Shown piece after piece: positions 32,665 to 63,696 of a stretch of 64,000 nucleotides of DNA. Under the pieces are notes generated by a model that saw nothing but the letters and a program-made list of their open reading frames with translations, did not search any database and had not been told where the DNA came from. The DNA comes from Astropecten irregularis (lineage: Eukaryota > Echinodermata > Asteroidea > Paxillosida > Astropectinidae), in assembly GCA_963971285.1 (NCBI GenBank), contig OZ020253.1, positions 15,760,528-15,824,527 on the forward strand, written 5' to 3'. Position 1 is the stretch's first letter. Every line of letters starts with the position of its first letter. Made by a program: the position numbers and the translations under genes.

Positions 32665-35600
32665 TTAAATGATTTCATTACATAATACACAGAATGAATT
32701 AAAAAGATGCTTACAAATGGTTCCAGGTTTTAGTTTTTCATCTATCTTTTCCATGCCAGTAATCTGGACAAATAAGACTTTCTTGTTGATATTCTCCATA
32801 TTTTCATGGAATTTTGGACCAGAGGTACTGGTCGTGCACTCATGGAGGTCAGTATTACCAAAGTACAAGTACTTATCGGAGAATGGTTGGGCCAAAGTTT
32901 GCTCAGTGTTACTATTTTGGACAACTAGCCAACTCATCCACACGTCTAGGAGGTATTGGGTGACATTCAATCCTTTTGTTTTTGAGTATGAGTTAATGTC
33001 TTTCAAAGCAGCTATTAGAAAAGGGTGCCCCTTTTCAAATTTCATGAAAGATGCACCTTCATTGTTTCTTTCGTCATCACCAGAGATTAAAACATTGCGC
33101 AATGATTGGTCTATTGGTCGCACGAAGATGACATTATGATCTACGTATACCCCACCCGATTTTAACAATATTTCCAACTTCATCCGATCTAAATCATTCC
33201 AAGGTAGGCCTACACCGGATTCTGATACAATGCCCTTCGGCAGGTTAAGACTTTGTACTTTAATGGTATAACCGACCTCTGTCAGTACATTCAAGCGACT
33301 CTGATTAACGTAGTTACTGTGAATGATTAGTTTAGCAAGAGGATGGTGGTGAAATATTGATTCAATGCTTCGCCGTGTTGGACGGTTCAGACCTCTTTGT
33401 ATTATCATATGGAATAATAACCTATTGTTTGAGTTTGTGGGATGGACTGGGAATGGTAATAGGCCAAATTTACGCGCACTGTCGTAGAGATTTTGATTCT
33501 GTCTAATCACATTCCAGTTAGTAGCCCTGGATCGCATGAACAGATCCAAGCCCGGGTTTGGTGGAGGGTTAACCCAGTCGAAGTCACGCAGCCATTTGGC
33601 AATATATTCTCGAGATGCGTTTAAGGCATTGATGGTATGGAAGAGGGGAGTGAGTCCCGTGACACGAGGGGAACTGACTTTGGTGGTGCCTCCGCCCCCT
33701 GGAAGGCTGGGAGAGTTAATGAATATCACAGGAGTACCAAGGGCAACGCAGGGCAGCGCAGTGTGAATGCGCTGCGTTACAACCACGTGAGCTTTGGAGT
33801 ACATTTCAAGTTTCCTATAAGCAGCTTGAAAACGTGGGATCAATTTGAATCTTTCCAGTTTGCTCTCCATGTCTTGAATACTACTGATTGCGCGTTTTGA
33901 AATTTCCTTTGGCAGTAAATGCTTAAATTTTTGCGATACGTCAACTAAATGGATTTTCCCCGTACGTTCTTGACCAACATTGGGATTTTTTATGAGGAGC
34001 GTCAAGCAGCTCGAAAAGAAAGCATCGATGTTGTGTTTGGTAAGGAACTCTAAAGTGCTGGCATCTCGACAGCCAATTGGTGCCCTGCTTCGCAGGTAAT
34101 CGGCATGTTTCATAAACTTATTACGAGCATTGTTATTGATGTGCATTGATAAGGTTATGGGGTGTATATTTTTGGGCGGAGGCCATGTAAAACCATATCT
34201 AGCCCACCATGCATTGAAAAAGGTTACAATCATGTCATCCCCCCTGGAACTTTCAAGGTCCTCTCTTTCAACTAAGTGGTCCACAAAGGGTAGGAATTGT
34301 ACCCCGGGAAAAGATTGCATCTCATCTCCAAGATTAGCAACGCCACATTCACGGACGTTCTTATCAAACGAGAATGTTCCGAAATGCCACATTGGTGCTT
34401 TAAACATTGGTATAAGCTGCCCGTATAAACTCCATGTCAAACCCTCTGGACAATATTGGTTTGATGACTTAATGCACATAGCATTGTATATCTCATGTAA
34501 TATTTCTCGAAAATGAAATTGCACTGGCCACGGAGCCTTTGCTTGGACCATGCGCTCTGCGTATTTATTGGCAAATACTCGGGTGAGATTACCTATGAAA
34601 GCGTGACGAGACGGGAACTGGGCCATGCCCAGAATTCCACAAGTGTTATTTGATGTGGCGTTCGGCCCGATGCTAACCCACGCCCTATCATGTGAAGGTG
34701 CAATAAAACCATCCAGTTTGACCAAGGGATCGAAATAAATACCACCTTGTTTCCATAAGATTGCCAGTCTTACTGCCTCGTGAAGATGGTCTTCAAAGTG
34801 TTTACCGCTCAGTATTTTATTAATAGCTTGCCGAGCTAGCCAGTGTTCTAATTGAGTATCTTTAAACAGATCACCGAGAAAAAGAAATTTGGCTGCGATA
34901 TTTGATTTGTCTAACCTCTTAACTGCTGACATACATTGCGATGTACCGCAGTATACCACGATGTTTGATCCTGGGTTTCCCTTCTGCAGACCGGCAATAT
35001 TGTCCAGGACTTGGTTCTCTATTGCTCTATCATACACCCAAGCTGTAGTAAACATGGTAGTGTGTTGGTTGTGGCCATAGAGTAGGCCTATCTGGTACGA
35101 ATGAAGTGAATGAATACTTGGAGACCAGCCAGTTATGCTTATGCAAGCTGTAAGGAGAAACATGAAAACGCCGAAGAACTTCCATTTCAGGCTTCTGACC
35201 AGTCCAGAATTGGAATTCCTCCCGCGTTGGAACTTAACAAGGCCCACCAAGAACGCAAGCAAGCCGAGTAACAACCTAGCGGATAGTGGCGTTGAGAAGA
35301 ATATCATGTTAGACGTGATGACGAAAACTCGTTTGAAGAGATTCAGTAAGGCATGCACAACCGGGCTGTAAGATAGCAGTACAGTTATGGACGCTGTATT
35401 ATAGATGAAGTGAAACACTGATGATATCAGGCTGCATTCTGGCTGGACAGATGGCAAAGTCTCAGTGATAATAAGTTTGATAGCGACAAACGGAATCATT
35501 ATCAGAACACTGAAGGCCGACACGACAGCGAATTTTTGTAGAGACTGACCTTTCCACGTTTCGCCCACTTTCTTCAAGTAGATGTTGCGGCATGGAAAAG

Positions 35601-36135
35601 CGATGTTGGCTACAACTGCAGCGCCTAAACCCCAGACATTATATGATGCATCACCAGAGATGAACATACATGCTCCTACGACCATGACAGAGACCGAGAC
35701 CAGTGTCGAGCACCCAAATACGTCGCCTTTCCTGTACAGCACAAACGTGAGTGCCATCGTGAAGACCGGCTCGCAGGATTTAATAACTTGAGTCACACTT
35801 GAACTGACTGCAGCAAAAGAGGCGTTGGTAGCCAAGTTCCCGACTGCATTGCCAATTGATGCCATCATTATGTACTTGTAGCAGGTGGTATCAAGCTGAG
35901 GAAATGTGCGATCGCCTTGGACGGCAGCGATCCAGACTGAAGCGGCCACCGCCCCCACGAGATGCTGCAACATGGTCAGGTCCAGCCATCTCAGGTCTCG
36001 AAAGGCCGGTGTCCAGTCGGTCATCTTATCCACTTTAACCGTGTAAGAATCCAGCATAACATTCTTGGACGCTATGGTGGCAATAACATTGGCAATCCAC
36101 CATACTGCAACTGCGACAGCTACCCAGATATCCAT
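32665..36135 (-). CDS. Intronless fusion: TPT/PEP-type carrier + GT-like + pyruvyltransferase + GT-like (1156 aa)
   Basis: One uninterrupted frame from ATG (36135) to TAA. Residues ~1-305 are a triose-phosphate-translocator family carrier (DMT superfamily) of about ten membrane helices. It has GNLATNASFAAV, the KSCEP form of the family KAxEP motif (~119-123) and a LKR-type pair in NLFKRV (~268-269), the positions that bind phosphate in the solved algal translocator. Basic residues 304-319 and a helix at ~320-336 follow, as in a type II anchor. Residues ~440-480 contain an AVRLAILWKQGGIYFD block of the DXD-sugar glycosyltransferase fold. Residues ~632-850 are a polysaccharide pyruvyltransferase domain with RSRAPIGCRDASTLEFL and VVVTQRIHTALPCVALGTPV. 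Residues ~940-1110 are a second sugar-transferase-like block with LEILLKSGGVYVDHN. N-glycosylation sequons at 492, 496, 516, 839, 944 and 1057 fit a Golgi-lumen location. Domain assignment is confident; substrates are inferred. Confidence 0.85.
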   Translation of the reverse strand: MDIWVAVAVAVWWIANVIATIASKNVMLDSYTVKVDKMTDWTPAFRDLRWLDLTMLQHLVGAVAASVWIAAVQGDRTFPQLDTTCYKYIMMASIGNAVGNLATNASFAAVSSSVTQVIKSCEPVFTMALTFVLYRKGDVFGCSTLVSVSVMVVGACMFISGDASYNVWGLGAAVVANIAFPCRNIYLKKVGETWKGQSLQKFAVVSAFSVLIMIPFVAIKLIITETLPSVQPECSLISSVFHFIYNTASITVLLSYSPVVHALLNLFKRVFVITSNMIFFSTPLSARLLLGLLAFLVGLVKFQRGRNSNSGLVRSLKWKFFGVFMFLLTACISITGWSPSIHSLHSYQIGLLYGHNQHTTMFTTAWVYDRAIENQVLDNIAGLQKGNPGSNIVVYCGTSQCMSAVKRLDKSNIAAKFLFLGDLFKDTQLEHWLARQAINKILSGKHFEDHLHEAVRLAILWKQGGIYFDPLVKLDGFIAPSHDRAWVSIGPNATSNNTCGILGMAQFPSRHAFIGNLTRVFANKYAERMVQAKAPWPVQFHFREILHEIYNAMCIKSSNQYCPEGLTWSLYGQLIPMFKAPMWHFGTFSFDKNVRECGVANLGDEMQSFPGVQFLPFVDHLVEREDLESSRGDDMIVTFFNAWWARYGFTWPPPKNIHPITLSMHINNNARNKFMKHADYLRSRAPIGCRDASTLEFLTKHNIDAFFSSCLTLLIKNPNVGQERTGKIHLVDVSQKFKHLLPKEISKRAISSIQDMESKLERFKLIPRFQAAYRKLEMYSKAHVVVTQRIHTALPCVALGTPVIFINSPSLPGGGGTTKVSSPRVTGLTPLFHTINALNASREYIAKWLRDFDWVNPPPNPGLDLFMRSRATNWNVIRQNQNLYDSARKFGLLPFPVHPTNSNNRLLFHMIIQRGLNRPTRRSIESIFHHHPLAKLIIHSNYVNQSRLNVLTEVGYTIKVQSLNLPKGIVSESGVGLPWNDLDRMKLEILLKSGGVYVDHNVIFVRPIDQSLRNVLISGDDERNNEGASFMKFEKGHPFLIAALKDINSYSKTKGLNVTQYLLDVWMSWLVVQNSNTEQTLAQPFSDKYLYFGNTDLHECTTSTSGPKFHENMENINKKVLFVQITGMEKIDEKLKPGTICKHLFNSFCVLCNEII

Positions 36136-36740
36136 GTTGTTTCGTTACAGCTACACCTGCCAGGTAACGAAAGATTGGTCAAATTGACCAATTTACATTG
36201 TCAATAACGGACCTTAGTATATATTTGGAGCTGCTGGGTGGAAAATACCTGTTACCGAAATCTCAAGAGAATTTTTGGACTTCTCTATATTCAGACAACT
36301 GCGTAGCCTCGCATGATACCAGCTAAACTGAGTCGAATAGAGTCACCGCGAGCAGATGATTCGACATAACGTTCAAGCCTCCGTGATGTGAACGACTGGC
36401 CGACTGAATTCAGAACATTCCGACGCACGGGACAATGGTATACATTAGGCGGCCTCTGTCAGTAGAGGGCGGCAGACTTATTCAGGATAAAATCTGGCGG
36501 GAAGAAACAAAAAACCGTAGTGCAGACGATCCGAAATGAAGCAGGTCAACTCGTGCGCCGACTAACTCGTACTGAAGTTACTGCTAACTAGGCATGTAGT
36601 CTGTAAACGTTTACGGTTTACTGATGATTATCCACGGTCTGCCGATATCATAATTTAATCATTTTTATTCATAGTCCGTGTAATCGTCACGGTTGCCTTT
36701 TCCTTGCGCACTGAGACGCGTCTTTTATGTTCCGATAATG

Positions 36741-39149: not shown

Positions 39150-42100
39150 TTAGATACCCCATACCTCCTCCTTGTCATTTTGCTTGTGACGCTTTAAGTT
39201 GCTGCGACCGCCAGTCTTTGAGATCAGTTGAATCTCACTGATCACTATGTCATGAGTGACTGCCTTACACATGTCATACAATGTCAATGCTGCGATTGAG
39301 ACTGCAGTCAGTGCCTCCATTTCTACCCCCGTTGCACCGACCGTCCGGGTCTGTGCAGTCACATAGACACTTTGACTCTCTTCCTCCATGGCCAAGGTCA
39401 CCTCCACTTTGGCTAGTGAGATGTTGTGGCACAGAGGTATCAGGTTGCTGGTCTGCTTGGCCGCCATCAGCCCGGCAAGCTGTGCCACGGTGAGAATGTC
39501 CCCCTTGGCTATTTTGTTTTGCAGGACGAGCCCGAAGGCATTCTGGCCCAGGAACACCTTGCCTGAGGCCACGGCAACTCGATTTGTGATAGCTCTTCCA
39601 CCTACGTCCACCATGTGAGCTCTGCCCGACTCTGCCACGTGGGTCAGACACTGCTGGGATGACTCAGTGCCTGAAGTCGAGCCCAGAGTTACTGGCTGAT
39701 CGGTTGATGAGGCATCGGCGGTGGATTCACTGGTCCCGCCATCATGCGGAGAGAGATCGGAAGTTGAAGGGTCAGAGTTTGGATGGATGTCCCCTGAAGA
39801 CATACACCGGAGGCACTCAATTTGAAACGGGCTTCCCTGATTGGACATCGACTGAGTGATCCACGCTGGGCTTTTTTGATTAAACATGCCTGATTGCTTG
39901 ATTGGTTGATAGTACCCTCTACCAGAAAGATAATGATTAGCAACGGCATCAGTCATATATGACGGAGGTAGATCCTTTCTAATCTCACACTGTTCATTAC
40001 CTAAAGAAAAAACAAATTAAGATCCCTGCTGCTATAGTACATTTGAACTCGTACTGTAGTGTGGCGCAAATTATAAGCTGGACAAGTTAACTGACATATA
40101 TGAGATATACAATTATGTGCAATTGACTGATCTCCAGGAGTTCTGGATTTTAACAGAAATGTGGTCAGATTGGGTAAGGACTGATGTTTCCATCATAACT
40201 TTAGGGAGTCAGATTGGCGTAGCGGTTCTTTCCTCGCCCTTGTGGACCGGGTTCGAGTCCGGCTTGGTGCACAAGTGGATTAGGTTTTCAGTCCCTACCT
40301 GATTCTATGGGTTTTACCCGGAATATTACTCTGGGGTTTTCCTCCCACCTCTAAGCTAAAACTGTATCTTCTTCTCATCATCTTTCCATAAAAAGTTTCA
40401 TCAGGCTTTCGAGCTACGGTGCTTAGGGCACTTTTGAGGAATCCTTGTTGTCATTTCCAGAAATGATTAATTAATAATAGCTGTTTACAAGCTAAATTTA
40501 ATGTTAGGAACAGATCCTGCTAGGATTTCCGCCCGAGCATTTCAGGTCATTATTTTGGTTGAGGTCAGCATTGGCCAATATGAAGCAGTACTTGTTCATT
40601 AACAATGATGAAACGTTTTCAGCATTTACACCTGTGCTCTTTACTCATAATCTAAATGTTTATGGAGCCCATGTAAAAGTCACCAGTGATGACAGAACCA
40701 AAGAAACTCACCCACCAATCAGAATCATAGGTCTGTTTTTCATCTTGGCAATGTTCATCATTCCTGCAGTGGCCGAAGGCAAGAACAAAAGCCAAACATT
40801 AGATTAGGCCTACCGCATGATCAGATGAAAGACTTGAACGGTGCTATGGTACTGCTTAAAGGTATTTGTCAAAGAAGTACAGATTCGTGGGCAATAAATA
40901 CCAATGAGGATACAGTAAGAGTCATCTGTGAAAATTTCAGTCCCATACGTTGCCCACTTTTTGAGAAAACAGTGAAAAACGGCCACAGTATTTCTTAAGT
41001 GTTTTCTCTTTTATTTTTGATCTTTTAAAAGATCAAAACGATTTTCGGTCGTTGTTTTACTAATTTCTGGATAAATACACCATTTCAGGCGGACAAATGT
41101 TAACGGTAGGTTTCTACCAGCATCATCTTCATACCCTGAAAATTATATGTAAATCTGTGAACATTTCTGTTTTGGTATCTTACCAAAGTATGATGCAACC
41201 TTTAAAGGCATAGTACAGGATTGGTTAAGATGACAGAACAGATGCAGATTGTTCATAATTTGATTTGTCATGGAATAACAAATCTGTGAAATTTTCAGCT
41301 CATATCATCATCGGAAACTGTAGAAAACAATCAAAAACGCTCACGGTATTGAATCTATTCACAAGAGTTTTGATCTTACCCCGAGATCGAAACTGTTTTT
41401 GGTCGTTGTTTTACTAATGTCTGGATTAATACAGCATTTCAGACGAAACAATTAAACGGTATGTTTCTACCAGCACCACCTTCATATCCTGAAAGTTATA
41501 CGTAAATCTGTGAACATTTCTGTTTGGGTATGTTATCAACCCTGTACTGTACGTTTAACAGAGAACCTTGTGAATAATTATCCTCTTTGCAGGAAATAAA
41601 AGTGGTTATGGTAGATAGAACCGATGTTAAAACTTCAGAATCTCTTTAAATCACCACTTCTCTTTCCAGTATAGATATTCACAGAGCTATTCAGAAAGGT
41701 TATTCACACACCTATCCATGGAAAATTACATAAGTATCGGAACTCTGGGAATAGATCATTCTAGGATTTAAACATCTGGCCCTCCGACCGTACGAGCATC
41801 TCAGGTCAATGATTTTGGTTGATAAGCACTGAGCAATTTGAAGTACATGAAGTACAAAGAAACAAAATGTTACACCAAAGATTTTGGTAAAATTATTTTC
41901 CTGATCCATTGTTGGGTATTTATATGTCATCAGTCATACCTGCATGCTGTTTCTTCTTCCTGCCCACGGCAGCTCCAATAACCTCCAGTAGTTCATTGTC
42001 ACTGGCTCCTTCTCTCATTGCATCACGCAGTGACACTTCGGCATTTCCAAACAGGCACACCTGAGGGATTAAAGAGCCAAATGTTTAGTCAGAAATTTAA

Positions 42101-45100
42101 CGAGCATCTTGGCCCCAAGCCCAGTGTCGATAAACTGTTCAGCAGCAGCAGAGAAATATTTTGTGGCCAACCTTAATTGAATAAACCACAATCAGGAATG
42201 ACGGGTTTCTTTCTGGTAAAAACAGGACTTGAAATGGTATCTTAACCACATTAAGATATTTAGGTAATTGCCTCTACCCCGATATGGTGTGGAAAAACCA
42301 GTCCCTCGAACCAAATTATGACTCCAGACTGACGGTGTGGGTATAGTGCAAATAGGACCGAGAATGGGTACCTACTTCAAAGCAATGCAATGAAATTTAC
42401 CCCATTGGTCTGGAGTAAACCAGTCCCCCAAGCAGAAACAGGAAATGGTTACTGTACAGTGCAGATAGGACTGAGATGGGTACCTTGTCCATGGCAAAGG
42501 TAGCAAGTACCTCCAACCAAATGATCTGGAGAAATTAGCCTCTCAAAAAGAAACCAAGATCGAGACAGGACTGATGGTCTCTGTACGGTACACATCGGTT
42601 TGGAATGGGTACCTATAGTCCACACCAAAGCACACCTTTGTGACACACTGGTCATGGTATGTTCCCACCATGTTTGCCCAAAAGAGCTCAGTCAATCAGT
42701 GTCACTGCATGCAGCGATTTTGGAGCATGAGACCTGAAAGAGAAGACTATCCATTTTGTGGCCGATGCCATGACGTACCTTGAGATTCCCATCAGCAGTG
42801 AGTCTCAATCTGTTACAGGATCCGCAAAATGGCTTTGTCATAGATGCAATTATACCAACTGTCCCTCGGAAACCAGGTACCTTGTAAGTCTGATCATGAT
42901 GCACACAGGAGGAAAACATACGATTAGGCTAATGTTTATGCTCAACTGGGGCCTTTCTCAAAGCTCGGCTTCGGCTCAGGCTCTGACTTCGTCTCTGTAA
43001 TCCATATGTGGAAATATTGTGTTGTGGTTCTTCATTGAAGCTGAAGCTCCGTTTTCGTTTCCAAACCAGAGAATCTACCTCCAAACCGCAGCCAACTTGC
43101 CTCAGCCAGGAGAGACAACAAGAGTGATCTTCTCCACGAAGTGAAATAATGGAGATTTGGTAAAATTTGTGAAGTGTTTGAACTTGTCTGAAGTGTTTGG
43201 GACGATCAGGGAGCAGTCTGATATTGAAATCCCTACTTACCACGGCAGTTGCATTGGGTTCGGTGTCCTCCAGGGGCCCCAAACCCGGCCATCTTGCTTG
43301 GATTGTCTCCAAAATCTTGTCCAAGCTAAACATCTTCTTGTTGTTCCATTTGTTGTCATCAAAAGGCATGTATTCAATGAAGCGCATTTCAATTGGCTGA
43401 AATAGAAACAAATTGAGATCCCCAATATTTAATCCACAATACCTCAGTGAGTATCAAAAACTGAAACTTTTTTTCGGTTTGAAAGCTTTTAAAATATTCA
43501 AAAATTTCATACAACACTGTATACACAAAAGCAACATTTCCTTAATTTATTTTCCACTGGAATGCCGCCGTATATTCAAGAAAATCGTTAGATGATGGAT
43601 CATTCCATCAAGATAGTCAGTGCACAATTTGTGACAATGTCCCTGTTACATCAGTGAACTCACACAGTTATCTGTAAATATGAGCAAATTATCTTTTCTT
43701 CAAATGAGAATGAAGTAAATCTGTTTCTTGAGCAGTGACATAAACACAAATTTCGAAGTCATATTAAAGGAGATGGTGAAAGTTACGGTGATGTAACCGG
43801 GACAGTGTCAAAAATCCTGCCCCAAATTTGTTGAAGGATCCTTATCAGACTACATGTAGTTTATTTGATGGGATGCATGTCTCTGGGCTCAGTCAGTCCA
43901 GGGGCCGATTTCACAAAGCTCAGCGACGCGTCGCATCTCGATTTGCGACGCGTCCTAGCTGCGACGCGTCGCATCTATGCGGTGAATCCATACAGAAAGG
44001 ATGCGTCTTAATGCTAAGTCGTAAGTTTTATGAAATCGGCTCCTGTAGTCCAGTTTAAAACTCCAAAATCCGTAAACAAAGCTTCAGGCAGAGGTTGATA
44101 TTCTTTTACCTTGTGTCTCGTGAGCTCGACGAAGTCACAGATCTCGTCCTCATTGAGACCTCTCATGACCACACAATTCACTTTCACTGGGTCGTAACCA
44201 AGCTCAATCGCTTTCTCTAGTCCCTTCCACACTTGGTGGAAACCTGGGGAGTCAGTTGCCAAACAATTTTTTTTTAAAGAAATAACAGTTAACAATTCAG
44301 TGAAAATACACTCCTTTACATGGTATGTTGATCTACTTTTCTAGACACTGCATCCCCAATTCTATTTTTGGCCTTCAAGATGCACGCTCTACGTTATGCG
44401 CATAAAAGGCATGCACTCCATGTTTGTTTGAAGCGTACCAACCTCTTCTGCGGGTGACGAACTCAAACTTGGCTGGCACCAGGGTGTCTAGGCTGAGGTT
44501 TAGCAAATTCAGCCCACTCTCCCTCAGCTTGGGCAGCCTCCTGTGCAATGCCACGCCGTTTGTGGTCATTGCTATGGTCTTCAGGCCGTCCAGTCTACCT
44601 AGTTGCTCTATGGAAAACAGGAAAGGCTCTTGGTAAGTTGTGTATGGATGCTGGCTAGATATACATGTATAACTGACGGACTATTAACAAAAGGTTCATG
44701 TGAAAACTCCACCAAAAAGTTGAAACTGTACCCATGGCCCAATTTCACAGACCTTGTATGAACAAAAGCATCTTCCTTTGCCAAAAACTGTTAACAGGCC
44801 AAAATTATATGCAGTTTTTATGCTAAGCAAATAACATCTGTCATTGCTCACTACACACAATAAAATCCACCTAGAATTGTTACCGGTGGCCCTTTTTTGA
44901 ATGGCGGGACTAATTATGATAAGCAATTATTTGCAACTTAGTATTTCCAATGTCTACATTGGAGACCACGTGTCTACTCAGTACAATCGACCATGTGCAT
45001 GGATTAAACAAGAGGAGATGCTTTAACGGTCATACTCACCGACTATCTCTACGATATCTTTCCTGACCATCGGCTCCCCACCGGTCAGCCGGACTTTGTC

Positions 45101-56700: not shown

Positions 56701-59700
56701 CAAAGTTCAACGTTGGGTTCACAGTGGGCTGCATCGAACGCCGTGAACAGAGCTTTCCAGTACGACGAGCCACACTGCAGCCAAACAAGTAAGCAACTTA
56801 CCAAGACTATAGCGAAGAAACAAATTTAGTTCTTCGACGTAAATATACGTAAATCACTCGATCTCGTTGACACGAGTAAAAACAATTAACAAAATTAGGT
56901 AAAATATCATATTTAAACATTTTTCTGCATTTTTTTTCTCGATCTAGTTCAGTCAGCATAAACTGTAATTTGGCATTAAATTAACCCTGGCTGGCACTAC
57001 AAACCAGATGTTTCACAAGTACAAACAATTCGTACATTTTCTACTAAAAAAAGCCGCAAGAATGACGCGGAAAGAGGTAAGTTCCAGCCGCAAGTGGTGA
57101 CTGTGAATCATGGAAAAAACAGCAAGATTGTAATGGTATGTGGCAAATGCCAGGGGCTTTTACGCTGATTTCCACGCTGCGCATAATTATTTCAAATGAA
57201 TTTACATTTTTAAGTGAATTGTAATTTTCACGAATTTCCGCTTACCAAATTAATGGCGTTTTTTTTTTAAATCGTTAACCTTTTCTGTTAGGTGCGGAAA
57301 ACAACCCGTGGTGGAGGCTCGACCTCATGTCTAATCAGTGTGTGAGAAAAATCACAATCAAGACCAGAGATGCATTAAATAGTAAGGCTACTCCGTATGG
57401 CATAATCTGATATAATTTAAAGCAACTGAACAAACTTTTAACGCAAGAAATTAACGCAAGGGTATGAGCAGTATATACTCCCCACTGCGCTAGCGTATTG
57501 ATATCACTTATTGATAAATGGCGGGCTGGCATTTCTAACACGTGTGTGGCTGGAGGTGAAGAATGGATGTCTGACATTGATGTCTGATTAATGTGTGGGA
57601 CAATCACTCCACAAGAGCAAAACCAAAGAATTCAAATCATTTCACTTTTAAATGTATAGTTTTCACTTGTTACACAATTTAAATAATTAAATATTCATCA
57701 TTCATGATAGTGGGCACAATTGAATCCTGCCTCGTTCGCAGAAAACCCCGTTTGCATAAACTCAAAATCAAGAAAGGCCCACTTCCAACACTTCGCATAT
57801 CTGTTTTCAGTAAACGATAGGTACCGATTCAGGGGTGCTGTTGTACGAGCCGGTAATAGCACTACGGTTACCAATAACAGGATGTGTGGGAGTCCAGTTA
57901 CCAGATATCAAGCTGTAGCCAATAACTGGATGGAGTTTGCCTGTAACTCGCCTGATGGAGTGATTGCTCGCTATGTCAGCGTCGATATCCCAGGAACAAA
58001 CAAGCAGCTTGCACTGTGTGAGGTACTCGTCACGTCTTGTGATCAACCTGAAGGTAAAATAAAAGCTTAGTTGATACAACTTTCCATTTTCCATCATCAG
58101 TCCTTTGTCTATAGTTCAGAGAAATAATTTCAAAATGTTTCTCTCTATTAATTGTCACCAGTGGATTATACGGTTGTCACCAATCCCGCACTCATCGGTC
58201 AGACTGGAGACGATGATGCAGTCATTGCTGTATACAGAGGCCCTACTGAAATATCAGCTGATGATGTCGCATTCGGTCGTCAGTTGTTGACTGGAGGGTC
58301 AAATTCTGGACTTCCTTCAGGATCGTCAGAGACACTCGACCAAATGTGTGAATCCAGACAACTTCAAATGCCAGCCGCAGGTGGAATAGATAGAACAGGT
58401 GTCTTCTACTTTCAGGCAATAACATATGAGAAGACCATCAGGATTCAGACTGTCATTTTACCTAGGGAAGGTGAGATTCTGATTGTTTAAGGTTGTCATT
58501 GAATAGAAATGGCAAATATTCTCGGGTATCTGTACTAGATGTGATCTGAACTCTGAACAGACACGTGGTGTTGATTCGTCCACAAGATATCTTCGATTAT
58601 TCCTAACCCTTCTGGCAATGAGCTGTTCATTTAAATGAGTCTTGCCCTTGGATATTACCACCATCTCTGCCTAAACCAACATAACCCATATCATAATACA
58701 TGAACCGTGAGAGAAAGTGCATGGGTTTGAGCAAAACCACTATGAAATCTATAATGAAATTTCCAGAATACTCAGGGACCAATCTGTTACTACATTTGGT
58801 TTCTGTTAGTGTTATCGTCAAGTATCAAAGGCACAATTTTCTCATGATTTTACCATCAGCCCTATAATCAGTTGGTAAGCACTTTATTACTTATTTCCCT
58901 TAACTATACTGCCCTATTCATTTACTTTACTGCTAAAGCGGTCAATGCCATACGACCTTCCCAGCGGACTCAAGTAGCAAGTATCGGAGACTCTGTGACT
59001 TTGGTAATGCAAGATGCGAACTCTTCACCGTCAACCAACTACATATGGAGGCATAACGGAGGGAATATCATTACAACTGGGAACAACCCGCTCAGCTTGA
59101 CCATCGATAGCGTTACTTCATCAGATGAAGGAATATACACCTGTTTCGTTTCCAACAATGAGAACCAACAACATATTGGCATCACACGGCTCATTGTGAA
59201 AGGTGAGGTTCAATGTACACATTACCAACTCATGACTTCATGTAAAAAAACTTTTGGAATACTCTACTCTACTCTACTTCTAACAACTCTCTCGACTATT
59301 CATTTGTGTGCCTCACTTTTGTTCGTTAGTTTTTACTCTTGCTTGTTTTGTACTGTTGTCTGAGTATAAATATAAACTGTTGCTTGGTATACTCTAACTA
59401 GAATGCACTGAAAACATGTGGGGACCCCCATCGTGTGTTAGAACATGTCGTCGATGCTACAATGGAGGAATCTGTGATGACAAGACTGGGAAGTGTATCT
59501 GCGCTCCAGGATTCAGTGGAAAACACTGTGGTCGAGGTGAATATGATAAGTTTTTCGTTTCCACATACAAGTGCACGAAGGGTGAACCCCTCATTTGCAA
59601 AATCGTCTAAACAGATACTGCCATCACACTAAACACCATTTATACTTCGTTAAAATGCTCGAAAAAAAATGCTCTCTGTGACCTTTCCACAAAGTGAGTA

Positions 59701-62700
59701 ATGTAAACATGTTTTGTATAATAATGTTTACAGTCCACGGCCGAAACATTTTTGGTCAAAACGGCAGTCAACGTTGCTCTGCTGACTCTGATGATCCACA
59801 CTCCACCGCTTGCCAGGGTCGATTATTCTGCCTTCCTGATCCGTATGGCTGCTCCTGTGCAGCAGGGTATATGGGACTGGACTGCATGCAAGGTAAATGT
59901 TTGTAATGAACGGATATTATAAGCCTTCCGAAGAAGTGCAAACGGTACTTTGCAAAACAAGGGAAAACAATTTGAAATGGGTCTGTCTTAATTAGTGCAC
60001 CTATAACAGAAGAGCATTTCGTCAACAGCACAATCAGTTTACCTGGAATAGTGTACGTGAAGTTCATATGGCATAATTAAATGGTGGTTACATCCCTAGT
60101 GCTCATTAGCTGGTCGATGTAGACACTACAGGACTCTTAAACTGTCACTTGACAGTTGACCTGAGTATAATCTCAGATGATAACCTTGGATCGAGATAAT
60201 GTACCTAATTATTAAACCTAATAGATTTGATAGCTATTGAGACGTAGATAGTTTGATATCGATGTTTCGATGTATTTTGACAGAATGTAGTGAAGGGACG
60301 TATGGAGCTGACTGTAAGCAGACATGTCATTGTGCAGCAGGTGGCACCTGTAGTAAAGATACTGGTAAATGTAGTGATGGCACATGCGAATCGCCATACT
60401 TTGGGATCAATTGCCAATGCTCACGTAAGTGTAGCTAAATTGAATGGTTCCTTGCTCTGTTCTTGTAATCAGAGTCACATTAATTTAAAGTCGTAAATGA
60501 AATGACGGTGGATCTTATTCACTGGTATCCAGCTTCACAGAGCTCAGCCATTTATTCAAATGAAATATGACATCAGTTAACAGGTCTTAAATGATCCACA
60601 AAATAATTTGGAACGACTGTCCGAGGAATCAAAACAAATTTACAATAATTCCCAAATTCATGATGTCTACAAGCCCATGCAAGATTTTACTCCATGTACT
60701 TATAAACATTTCTTTTTCAAAATGGCATTTCACCTTTTGGTCAATCATTGAAAACAAAGTGTAGGAAATCCCTTTTACAAATTGCCATGCAATTTTTTTC
60801 TCGCACTACAACGTACATTTCCATTTATTCTTAGGCTGATTATGTTCACCCGATAAACCATTTGAATAATATTGATTGTAACACAACAGTCATCATTATG
60901 TTCAAAGCGATCTTCATAAAGCGAGTAACACCCCGGCTTGTTTTTTTTTTAGGACACGAAGCTTCCCCGGATGAGGAATCTATCACCCACGAGAGCGTGA
61001 CTTTCACCTGGAAAAGACCCACGTGCTCACTCCACAGTGGTACCGTGACTCGATACATGTACCAACTCACAAACGTCGATTCTGGTACAGTGTTTGAATT
61101 ATCCAATACTGTACAGCATTCTGTAAGCATCCAAGGCTTGGTCCCGTACACAGAATATAACTTTCAAGTTAGGGTTACCACCAGCAGCGGAGACGGCCCT
61201 TATGAAGGTGTTATTGTAAGGACGGCAGAAACTGGTAAGTCAATGTGTTTCTCTTTTCTTTTCTTAAAATTCATCAAAGCGATGAAAAAAAAAATTGATT
61301 CCATGTCTTTCTTCCCAAGTGTACTGCCTTGTGTTCGTGTACTATACATTTTGTTCTCTTTTCGCTTTTTTGTATACATGATCGATGTCCTCTTCTTGCC
61401 AAACGGTGTAACAATGTACCAACAATACACAGTTCCAAATCGGTGAACATTAATGTATAATGGATGTAAGATTTGCCATAAATAACTAATTCAGTCTAAA
61501 TTACATGTATGGCAAGTGGTACGACTGGGTTTTGTTCAGCCACCTTAAAAGGTGTGTCAAATTTGGGAAAGTGCTTTCCGATTATTGCTTAATGCACAAT
61601 TAATTACTACATAAATTAAAATATTTATGTAAGTGCATAATTTTGACTCCAAAGATAAAACAAATCCCACTCGGAACCGATCCACGCGACATTGCGTGTC
61701 ATGTACCTCATACACGCTGGCTCGCGCACATCGCATGTAAGACTCTGCTTTTGGATTTGAACAAAAACGCGGGATCGGCAAGTTTGCGACTTGCATACTG
61801 CGTGGCTTTCTGCCAGCTTTTAAGCGCAAACATTGATACACAGGTTGAGTTTTATAATAATACAGATGTATGTAACTTCATATGATTTTTGATTTCAGGT
61901 AACCTTTAAGGGCTGAGCGATCTGGAGCTGAGTGTCAGCATTATATGCGGCTGTTGTAATTGTTCCGAACAGATAATGATTAAAGTTACTAATGCCCACG
62001 TGCTCCGGTATAATGTTTATCCCTATAGCGCCAACCAAACCACTACATTTCGCCATTCTGAGCGTGGACGACACCTCTATTACTGTTGTGTGGTCAGCGC
62101 CTGAGCCTCCCAATGGAAACATCACCAATTATGACATCGCATACTGGAAAACTGCAGACATGGGATCCCCAACCATACGTGACATAGGCGTGATGACCCC
62201 ACTCATGTATCATCTAATGGGGTTGGAGTCATTTGTTACATATCACATTCAGGTATACAGTGTTACCTATCACATTTAGGGGTACAGTGTTACCTATGGC
62301 ATTCAGGTATACAGTGTTACCTATCACATCCAGGTATACAGTGTTACCTATGACATTTAGGTATACAGTATTACCTATCACATTTAGGTGTACAGTGTTA
62401 CCTATGGCATTCAGGTATACAGTGTTACCTATGACATTCAGGTGTACAGTGTTACCTATCACATCCAGGTATACAGTGTTACCTATAACATTTAGGTATA
62501 CAGTATTACCTATCACATTTAGGTGTACAGTGTTACCTATGGCATTCAGGTATACAGTGTTACCTATGACATTCAGGTGTACAGTGTTACCTATGACATT
62601 CAGGTGTACAGTGTTATTTATCACATTCAGGTATACAGTGTACCTATGGAATTATGGTATACAACGTTATCTATCACATTCAGGTACACAGTGTTCCATG

Positions 62701-63696
62701 TCACACTCAGGTATACAGTGTACCTATGGAATTATGGTATACAGCGTTATCTATCACATTCAGGTATACAGTGTACCTATCACATTCAGGTATACAGTGT
62801 ACCTATGGAATTATGGTATACAGCGTTATCTATCACATTCAGGTACACAGTGTTCCATGTCACACTCAGGTATACAGTGTACCTATGGAATTATGGTATA
62901 CAGCGTTATCTATCACATTCAGGTACACAGTGTTCCATGTCACACTCAGGTTTACAGTGTACCTATGGAATTATGGTATACAGCGTTATCTATCACATTC
63001 AGGTACACAGTGTTCCATGTCACATTCAGGTATACAGTGTACCTATGGAATTATGGTATACAGCGTTATCTATCACATTCAGGTACACAGTGTTCCATGT
63101 CACATTCAGGTATACAGTGTACCTATAACATATATAGGTATACAGTGTTATCTATCACATTCAGGTATACAGTGTTACCTATCACATTCAGATATACAGT
63201 GTTACCTATCACATTCAGGTATACAGTGTTGCCTATACAGTATATATCACATTCAGGTATACATTATTATCTATACAGTATATCACATTCAGGTTTACAG
63301 ACGTTTACCTATCACATTCAGGTTTACAGACGTTTACCTATCACATTCAGGTTTACAGTGGCAAAATGGAGCATCATTATATGTTACTAAGTTTTGGCCT
63401 TTGGAACACTTCACTTATATTCAGTCAACCATAACATTACGCCCAATTTTAGAAACACTAATTCATCTATAAAACAGTGTCATAAACAAGTAAATCAGAA
63501 GATATAATATCGTTTCTTACATGGTATTACCACAAACCTACCTTATCTAGTACTTTCACTATGTATAACTCTATTAAGTCTTATTTAACCAAAGCAGATA
63601 ACATTACTTTTCTGCTGATATGACAGGTTCGGGCTAAAACATCTGCAGGTGTTGGTCCATGGAGTACCTTGGAAACGACATTCACTCAAATCGGGG
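53749..63696 (+). CDS. Tie-family receptor with two N-terminal F-type lectin domains (5' part, kinase not in window)
   Basis: Exons: 53749-53821, 54355-54456, 54927-55037, 56310-56555, 56672-56788, 57292-57381, 57811-58053, 58162-58470, 58939-59202, 59402-59536, 59734-59892, 60284-60424, 60953-61234, 62029-62252, 63627-63696; 2566 nt in one frame, 855 aa so far. A hydrophobic signal peptide (HTALFLLILTLL) is followed by two F-type lectin domains (NPWWRVDL...VRAG...ARYVSVELPG; NPWWRLDL...VRAG...ARYVSVDIPG). Next is a 103-residue exon with VFYFQAITYEKTIRIQTV, which resembles Tie Ig1. An Ig domain ends TRLIVKG and is followed by three EGF modules, the second with FCLPDPYGCSCA, a hallmark of Tie1/Tie2. 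Two FN3 domains follow. All introns are phase 1 except the phase-0 one inside the second FN3. The transmembrane and kinase exons, if present, are beyond 64000, so receptor kinase identity is inferred. Confidence 0.85.
55791..55950. mobile_element. 160-bp MITE with GC-rich alternating core
   Basis: ACAATGGGAGACTTTTGAGA and the inverse TCTCAAAATTAAGTCTCCCA bound GCGCACGCGCACGCAA and its inverse, which include purine-pyrimidine runs. It lies in the third intron of the Tie-like gene. Confidence 0.8.
62253..63360. repeat. 27-bp minisatellite carrying an exon end and splice donor
   Basis: About 40 units related to TATCACATTCAG-GTATACAGTGTTACC, starting directly at the donor of the FN3 exon ending 62252. 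The exon end itself (TATCACATTCAG|GTATACAG) is the first unit. Higher-order units of ~75-150 bp occur from 62640 on, with TACCTATGGAATTATGG. The 27-bp length keeps frames open, but no independent gene is implied. Confidence 0.9.

Follow-up and report, generated by a model that had tools for sequence, protein, structure and literature searches.

A sea star gene family that joins a triose-phosphate-transporter-type carrier to a putative glycan pyruvyltransferase

Introduction

In Schizosaccharomyces pombe, the Golgi pyruvyltransferase Pvg1 is fed by the phosphoenolpyruvate (PEP) transporters Pet1 and Pet2 (extracts of PMC6801904 and PMC4872226). Extracts of these two papers, of PMC10435577 and of a review on the glycans of non-vertebrates (PMC6994554) name pyruvyltransferases only of bacteria or fission yeast. 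The review extracts also mention sea hare glycolipids and sponge glyconectins that carry pyruvate, together with the yeast gene pvg1, and name no pyruvylated echinoderm glycan.

Our literature searches found no description of a fusion between a polysaccharide pyruvyltransferase and a triose-phosphate transporter (TPT), and nothing on a pyruvyltransferase in sea stars or Branchiostoma or on its horizontal transfer into metazoans; for carrier-enzyme fusions in general, nothing relevant was found among titles and the opening parts of abstracts. We know of no animal pyruvyltransferase of this kind, nor of any protein that combines a carrier with a pyruvyltransferase (PvT) domain, although the single modules are known. 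In the literature searched the combination does not appear, and an unnamed gene model in animal databases may already contain it.

Results

A single open reading frame contains carrier and pyruvyltransferase domains

We analyzed a 64,000-nucleotide stretch of the Astropecten irregularis genome (C17:15760528-15824527), referred to below as the window. A sequence-only reading had proposed that one 1156-codon frame joins a carrier to a pyruvyltransferase. This frame is indeed a single ATG-started open reading frame on the minus strand, and the domain search that the reading had called for scores both families within it: PF03151 (TPT) reaches 114.2 bits (cut-off 30) and PF04230 (PS_pyruv_trans) reaches 47.5 bits over residues 672-807 (cut-off 25.3), the latter passing its cut-off in all six genomic copies described below. 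The parts of the locus are as follows:

32665..36135, minus strand: intronless open reading frame of 1156 amino acids with ATG start, in the order TPT - TM - GT32-like - PvT - GT32-like (ORF call and Pfam)
35239..36123, minus strand: TPT-family carrier, residues 5-299 (PF03151, 1e-32; alignment to 5y78)
35179..35229, minus strand: positively charged linker, residues 303-319, predicted cytosolic (4-5 K/R and no D/E in all six copies)
35122..35178, minus strand: extra hydrophobic helix, residues 320-338 (top 19-residue hydropathy 1.65-2.34 in all six copies)
34381..35025, minus strand: first GT32-like module, marginal, residues 371-585, limits set by hand (PF04488 at 437-469; alignment)
33526..34380, minus strand: PvT domain, residues 586-870, limits set by hand (PF04230, 3e-12; 91-row alignment; model and fold match)
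32668..33525, minus strand: second GT32-like module, residues 871-1156, limits set by hand (PF04488 at 922-1011)
36136..36423, minus strand: upstream stretch partly common to the copies, likely 5' UTR or promoter (similarity between copies)

The surroundings contain a MoaC exon on the same strand (39150-40013), a Mob_synth_C match below its cut-off at 42929-43450 on the minus strand (29.2 bits, cut-off 37.4); the opposite, plus strand has Ig and fn3 matches within 58848-61446. As this neighborhood is animal-like, we do not take the contig for a stray bacterial one. Elsewhere in the window, 62218-63472 is repeat-rich and open in several frames on both strands.

The fusion is shared by six selected copies

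A protein search of the whole assembly (475.7 Mb, 168 contigs) found eight places, namely six copies with at least 1103 of the 1156 residues matched and two fragments. One copy lies on C17, three on C12 and two on C1 (contigs of 21, 23 and 39 Mb, respectively). Over residues 1-1090, identity to the window copy is 82-86% for the other five, and dN/dS is 0.40-0.58 in all 15 copy pairs; the carrier part taken separately gives 0.28-0.71, again in every pair. Up to residue 1085 the five other copies are free of stops, although neutral simulation predicts 5.3-6.0 of them per lineage. Gaps between copies comprise whole codons within open frames, including at the junction. A pseudogene or a misjoined frame therefore finds no sign among the six copies, which have lost neither frame nor selection. 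The fusion is no chance event: one selected open reading frame is common to all six.

The junction between carrier and enzyme (residues 303-370) behaves differently. Among the 15 pairs, 12 yield a dN/dS value for it, ranging over 0.79-1.75, and residues 331-360 differ between copies at a mean 0.35 of positions, with several gaps. Because this stretch is unconstrained and free to change, cleavage there is possible. These values, about 1 or more, would also suit a protein cut, or an mRNA split, at the junction to yield a separate carrier and enzyme, but the frame runs unbroken across it in all six copies, in which both the charged linker and the helix persist, and we consider such a separation very improbable.

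Upstream of the ATG, the main block in which the other copies resemble the window copy extends for 77 to 288 bases, to 36423 for L004, to 36365 for L002, L005 and L006, and to 36212 for L003. Downstream it ends between a point inside the open reading frame (L006) and about 570 bases past the stop (L003), and beyond it shorter, repeat-like matches are strewn over the window. A transcript-sized, intronless unit of this kind would fit retroposition. In the L006 copy (C1:23254028-23257330) the tail beyond about residue 1090 is gone, and a piece matching residues 1102-1156 (C1:23262439-23262603) lies about 5 kb downstream of it, as if an insertion had split the gene.

Carrier and likely substrate

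A sequence search of the PDB found one relative of the carrier, the hexose phosphate translocator 5y78 from the plastid of a red alga. We assume the link between its numbering and that of Arabidopsis TPT. By alignment to 5y78, the six residues that the extract of PMC6981301 lists for the pocket of Arabidopsis TPT correspond to Asn100, Lys119, Phe180, Tyr245, Lys268 and Arg269 of the fusion carrier. The Lys and Lys-Arg proposed from sequence as the phosphate site are thereby upheld, since Lys119 and Lys268-Arg269 align with those of the solved translocator, and they are kept in all six copies. The pocket is mixed: it shares family, Lys, Lys-Arg, Tyr245 and Phe180 with the plastid-type phosphate translocators (5y78, Arabidopsis TPT), but His184 of Arabidopsis TPT is replaced by Asn100, whereas its Phe262 is retained as Phe180. 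The fusion differs from these translocators also in being joined to enzymes and in its distance from the model of the NCBI phosphate/PEP translocator subfamily, TIGR00817, which gives the window copy 81.5 bits and the three scanned copies 81.5-85.6 bits, against a cut-off of 317.9.

These features bear on what the carrier might import. According to the extract of PMC6981301, a Phe at this pocket position is thought to exclude PEP in Arabidopsis TPT, so that by analogy Phe180 counts against PEP; the same extract states that a diatom TPT2 with Phe at this position transports PEP when His and Tyr are replaced. Of these two changes the fusion carrier shows one: His is replaced, and Tyr is kept. 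Outside the fusion, the genome contains nine further TPT matches, seven of them above the cut-off, in pieces on C29, C17 and C10 and, below the cut-off, on C1. All six plus-strand pieces that were scored are closer to 5y78 than to the fusion carrier, which is therefore no recent copy of them. Lys and Lys-Arg also appear in TPT exons that stand alone in this genome (L114; L115 and L119) and are therefore not diagnostic of PEP.

An alternative is thus that the fusion is real while the carrier imports some other phosphorylated or nucleotide-linked compound, such as a sugar phosphate, or merely anchors and targets the enzyme, with PEP entering through another carrier. Phe180 with Tyr245, the distance from TIGR00817 and the further TPT genes would suit this account. 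Yet the carrier is under the selection described above, its three charged pocket residues are invariant among the copies, and every PF04230 match in the genome is fused to a carrier by family profile search. A separate PvT search of the genome added a weak place at C9:13749098 (E 0.25) and the fragment L007, neither of which was part of the PF04230 search. We regard another substrate or an anchoring role as less likely, and PEP would be the most likely substrate.

Topology and the enzyme domains

An extra anchor helix had also been predicted, and a hydrophobic helix does lie at residues 320-338. The ten carrier helices claimed with it are implied by the family fold, but hydropathy gave no ten separate peaks. 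In the TPT fold both ends face the cytosol. In every one of the six copies the linker ahead of the extra helix contains four or five K/R and lacks D/E, and past the helix there are 0-3 K/R and 0-1 D/E; the asymmetry of charge is pronounced in the window copy and less so in others. With the TPT ends expected in the cytosol, the charged linker and the single helix support placement of all later parts in the lumen. The six N-glycosylation sequons reported past the helix are present at 492, 496, 516, 839, 944 and 1057, and positions 516, 839 and 1057 are common to all six copies.

In the PvT domain, a 91-row alignment identified N601, G603, D604, R690, R789 and H791. The Asp, Arg and Arg-x-His of Pvg1/CsaB, whose roles towards acceptor and PEP are given in extracts of PMC4872226 and PMC10435577, correspond to D604, R690, R789 and H791 and are kept in all six copies; D604 and R690 were assigned by motif and invariance, R789 and H791 additionally by alignment to 5ax7 (Pvg1). 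With the animal rows excluded from the count of conserved columns, 32 of 34 agree (exceptions 610 and 714). Row L104 falls outside the 91-row set, its chosen frame lacking the match. The predicted model and its fold match show the two-domain fold of Pvg1. Between copies, no other large domain changes as fast as PvT (33526-34428, residues 570-870), where the differences fall mostly at 571-600, 631-690 and 751-780; these fast stretches may reflect acceptor choice.

The two sugar-transferase-like modules noted earlier both match PF04488 (Gly_transf_sug), the second above its cut-off (26.1 bits, cut-off 23) and the first marginally (23.0 bits at the same cut-off). A GG-x-Y-x-D-like core is present in each, but the second D of DXD is missing: the corresponding place reads DPL or NPL in the first module and DHN or DPN in the second across the six copies, with DPL and DHN in the window copy and N in place of the first D in the first module of L002. 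The modules are weakly alike to each other and to the Caps_synth part of a Sphingobium protein discussed below, and PDB profile searches with both gave no match at E up to 1. Modules without DXD would most likely serve to bind the acceptor glycan or to position it; alternatively, they could be altered transferases with a DAT-like motif, as in the bacterial Caps_synth-PvT fusion.

The missing second D in both modules, the loss of the first in L002 and the rapid change of PvT relative to the other large domains would be compatible with a PvT that is cytosolic or has ceased to transfer pyruvyl groups, so that the whole would be a carrier with lectin-like tails. This seems improbable to us, given that the PvT catalytic positions are retained in every copy and that the charged linker and the three shared sequons favor the lumen.

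Proposed mechanism

We consider it fairly probable that the six proteins form a Golgi-type membrane family in which the carrier imports PEP, a lumenal PvT pyruvylates a glycan and the GT32-like modules handle the acceptor. The TPT carrier, both ends most likely cytosolic, would bring in a small phosphorylated molecule, most likely by exchanging PEP for phosphate; the extra helix would lead the chain into the lumen, where PvT would use PEP to place a ketal-linked pyruvate on a glycan sugar. Yeast Pvg1 with Pet1 and Pet2 would be the model for this logic, here within one chain. Of the interpretation first drawn from the sequence, the fusion, the topology logic, the PvT domain with its catalytic residues and the layout, now found in six copies, have held up; Golgi location, PEP import, lumenal pyruvyl transfer, the acceptor and the role of the GT modules we infer.

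If true, an animal would possess a ready-made route to pyruvate-tagged glycans. The family would supply a testable gene for the known pyruvylated sugars of invertebrates, would exemplify a substrate carrier fused to the enzyme that it feeds, and would be a candidate for a polysaccharide enzyme of bacterial type employed in the animal Golgi for anionic glycans.

Relatives and origin of the pyruvyltransferase domain

Pvg1 resembles the PvT domain in fold and catalytic residues, and in yeast it is likewise a Golgi enzyme supplied by PEP carriers. However, Pvg1, Pet1 and Pet2 are separate yeast genes, whereas here one polypeptide contains both functions' domains plus two extra GT32-like modules, and PvT is only 10% identical to Pvg1 (5ax7) in structural alignment, compared to about 33% for bacterial relatives. 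A scan of genome contigs gave 266 relatives from 418 candidates, an earlier contig scan having found none. The best 80 of the 266 are bacterial PS_pyruv_trans proteins from clusters of exopolysaccharide type. Their best segments are 29-36% identical to PvT (at least 31% in 79) and they share its conserved core, but 70 of the 80 open reading frames have only 300-345 amino acids. No carrier domain was found in the eight of them scanned by Pfam.

The Sphingobium plasmid protein WP_285833803 (Caps_synth and PS_pyruv_trans) resembles the fusion in that a GT32-like module directly precedes PvT, but it is without a carrier or second GT module and is 26% identical. Its gene (L022:7230-8909) adjoins dTDP-rhamnose and export genes. 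Three bacterial PvT proteins have long C-terminal extensions (L040:5893-7674, L091:5920-7350 and L099:5914-7293), with weak coiled-coil-type Pfam matches in the first and none in the other two.

Searches of mobile elements gave two PvT relatives and none for either GT module in plasmid records, and no relatives in phage records. Viral PvT relatives were absent with the window sequence alone as query, whereas a wider alignment retrieved 4 of 52 candidates; the carrier and both GT modules had no viral relatives. In a tree, the six copies form one clade (100/100) on a long branch (3.24) among the sampled bacteria, the sample containing no other eukaryote. Horizontal transfer of PvT is suggested by this placement. 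A wider, tentative reading is that echinoderms may make pyruvylated glycans by a self-supplying enzyme composed of a eukaryotic carrier and a bacterial-type PvT, in copies with differing acceptors that the fast PvT stretches perhaps set.

The mitochondrial-type COX1 of the assembly has AAA, AGA and ATA where the conserved protein has Asn, Ser and Ile, and TGA within the frame. This is the code of echinoderms and flatworms, which agrees with an echinoderm host and decides against a lancelet. Two other COX1 sequences were seen in the assembly. One (C131:32162-33484) has no internal stops, is unlike the mitochondrial-type copy and may represent a bacterial contig; the other (C25:9951047-9952018) is partial, contains TGA codons, belongs to a contig no shorter than 9.9 Mb and is probably a nuclear copy of mitochondrial DNA.
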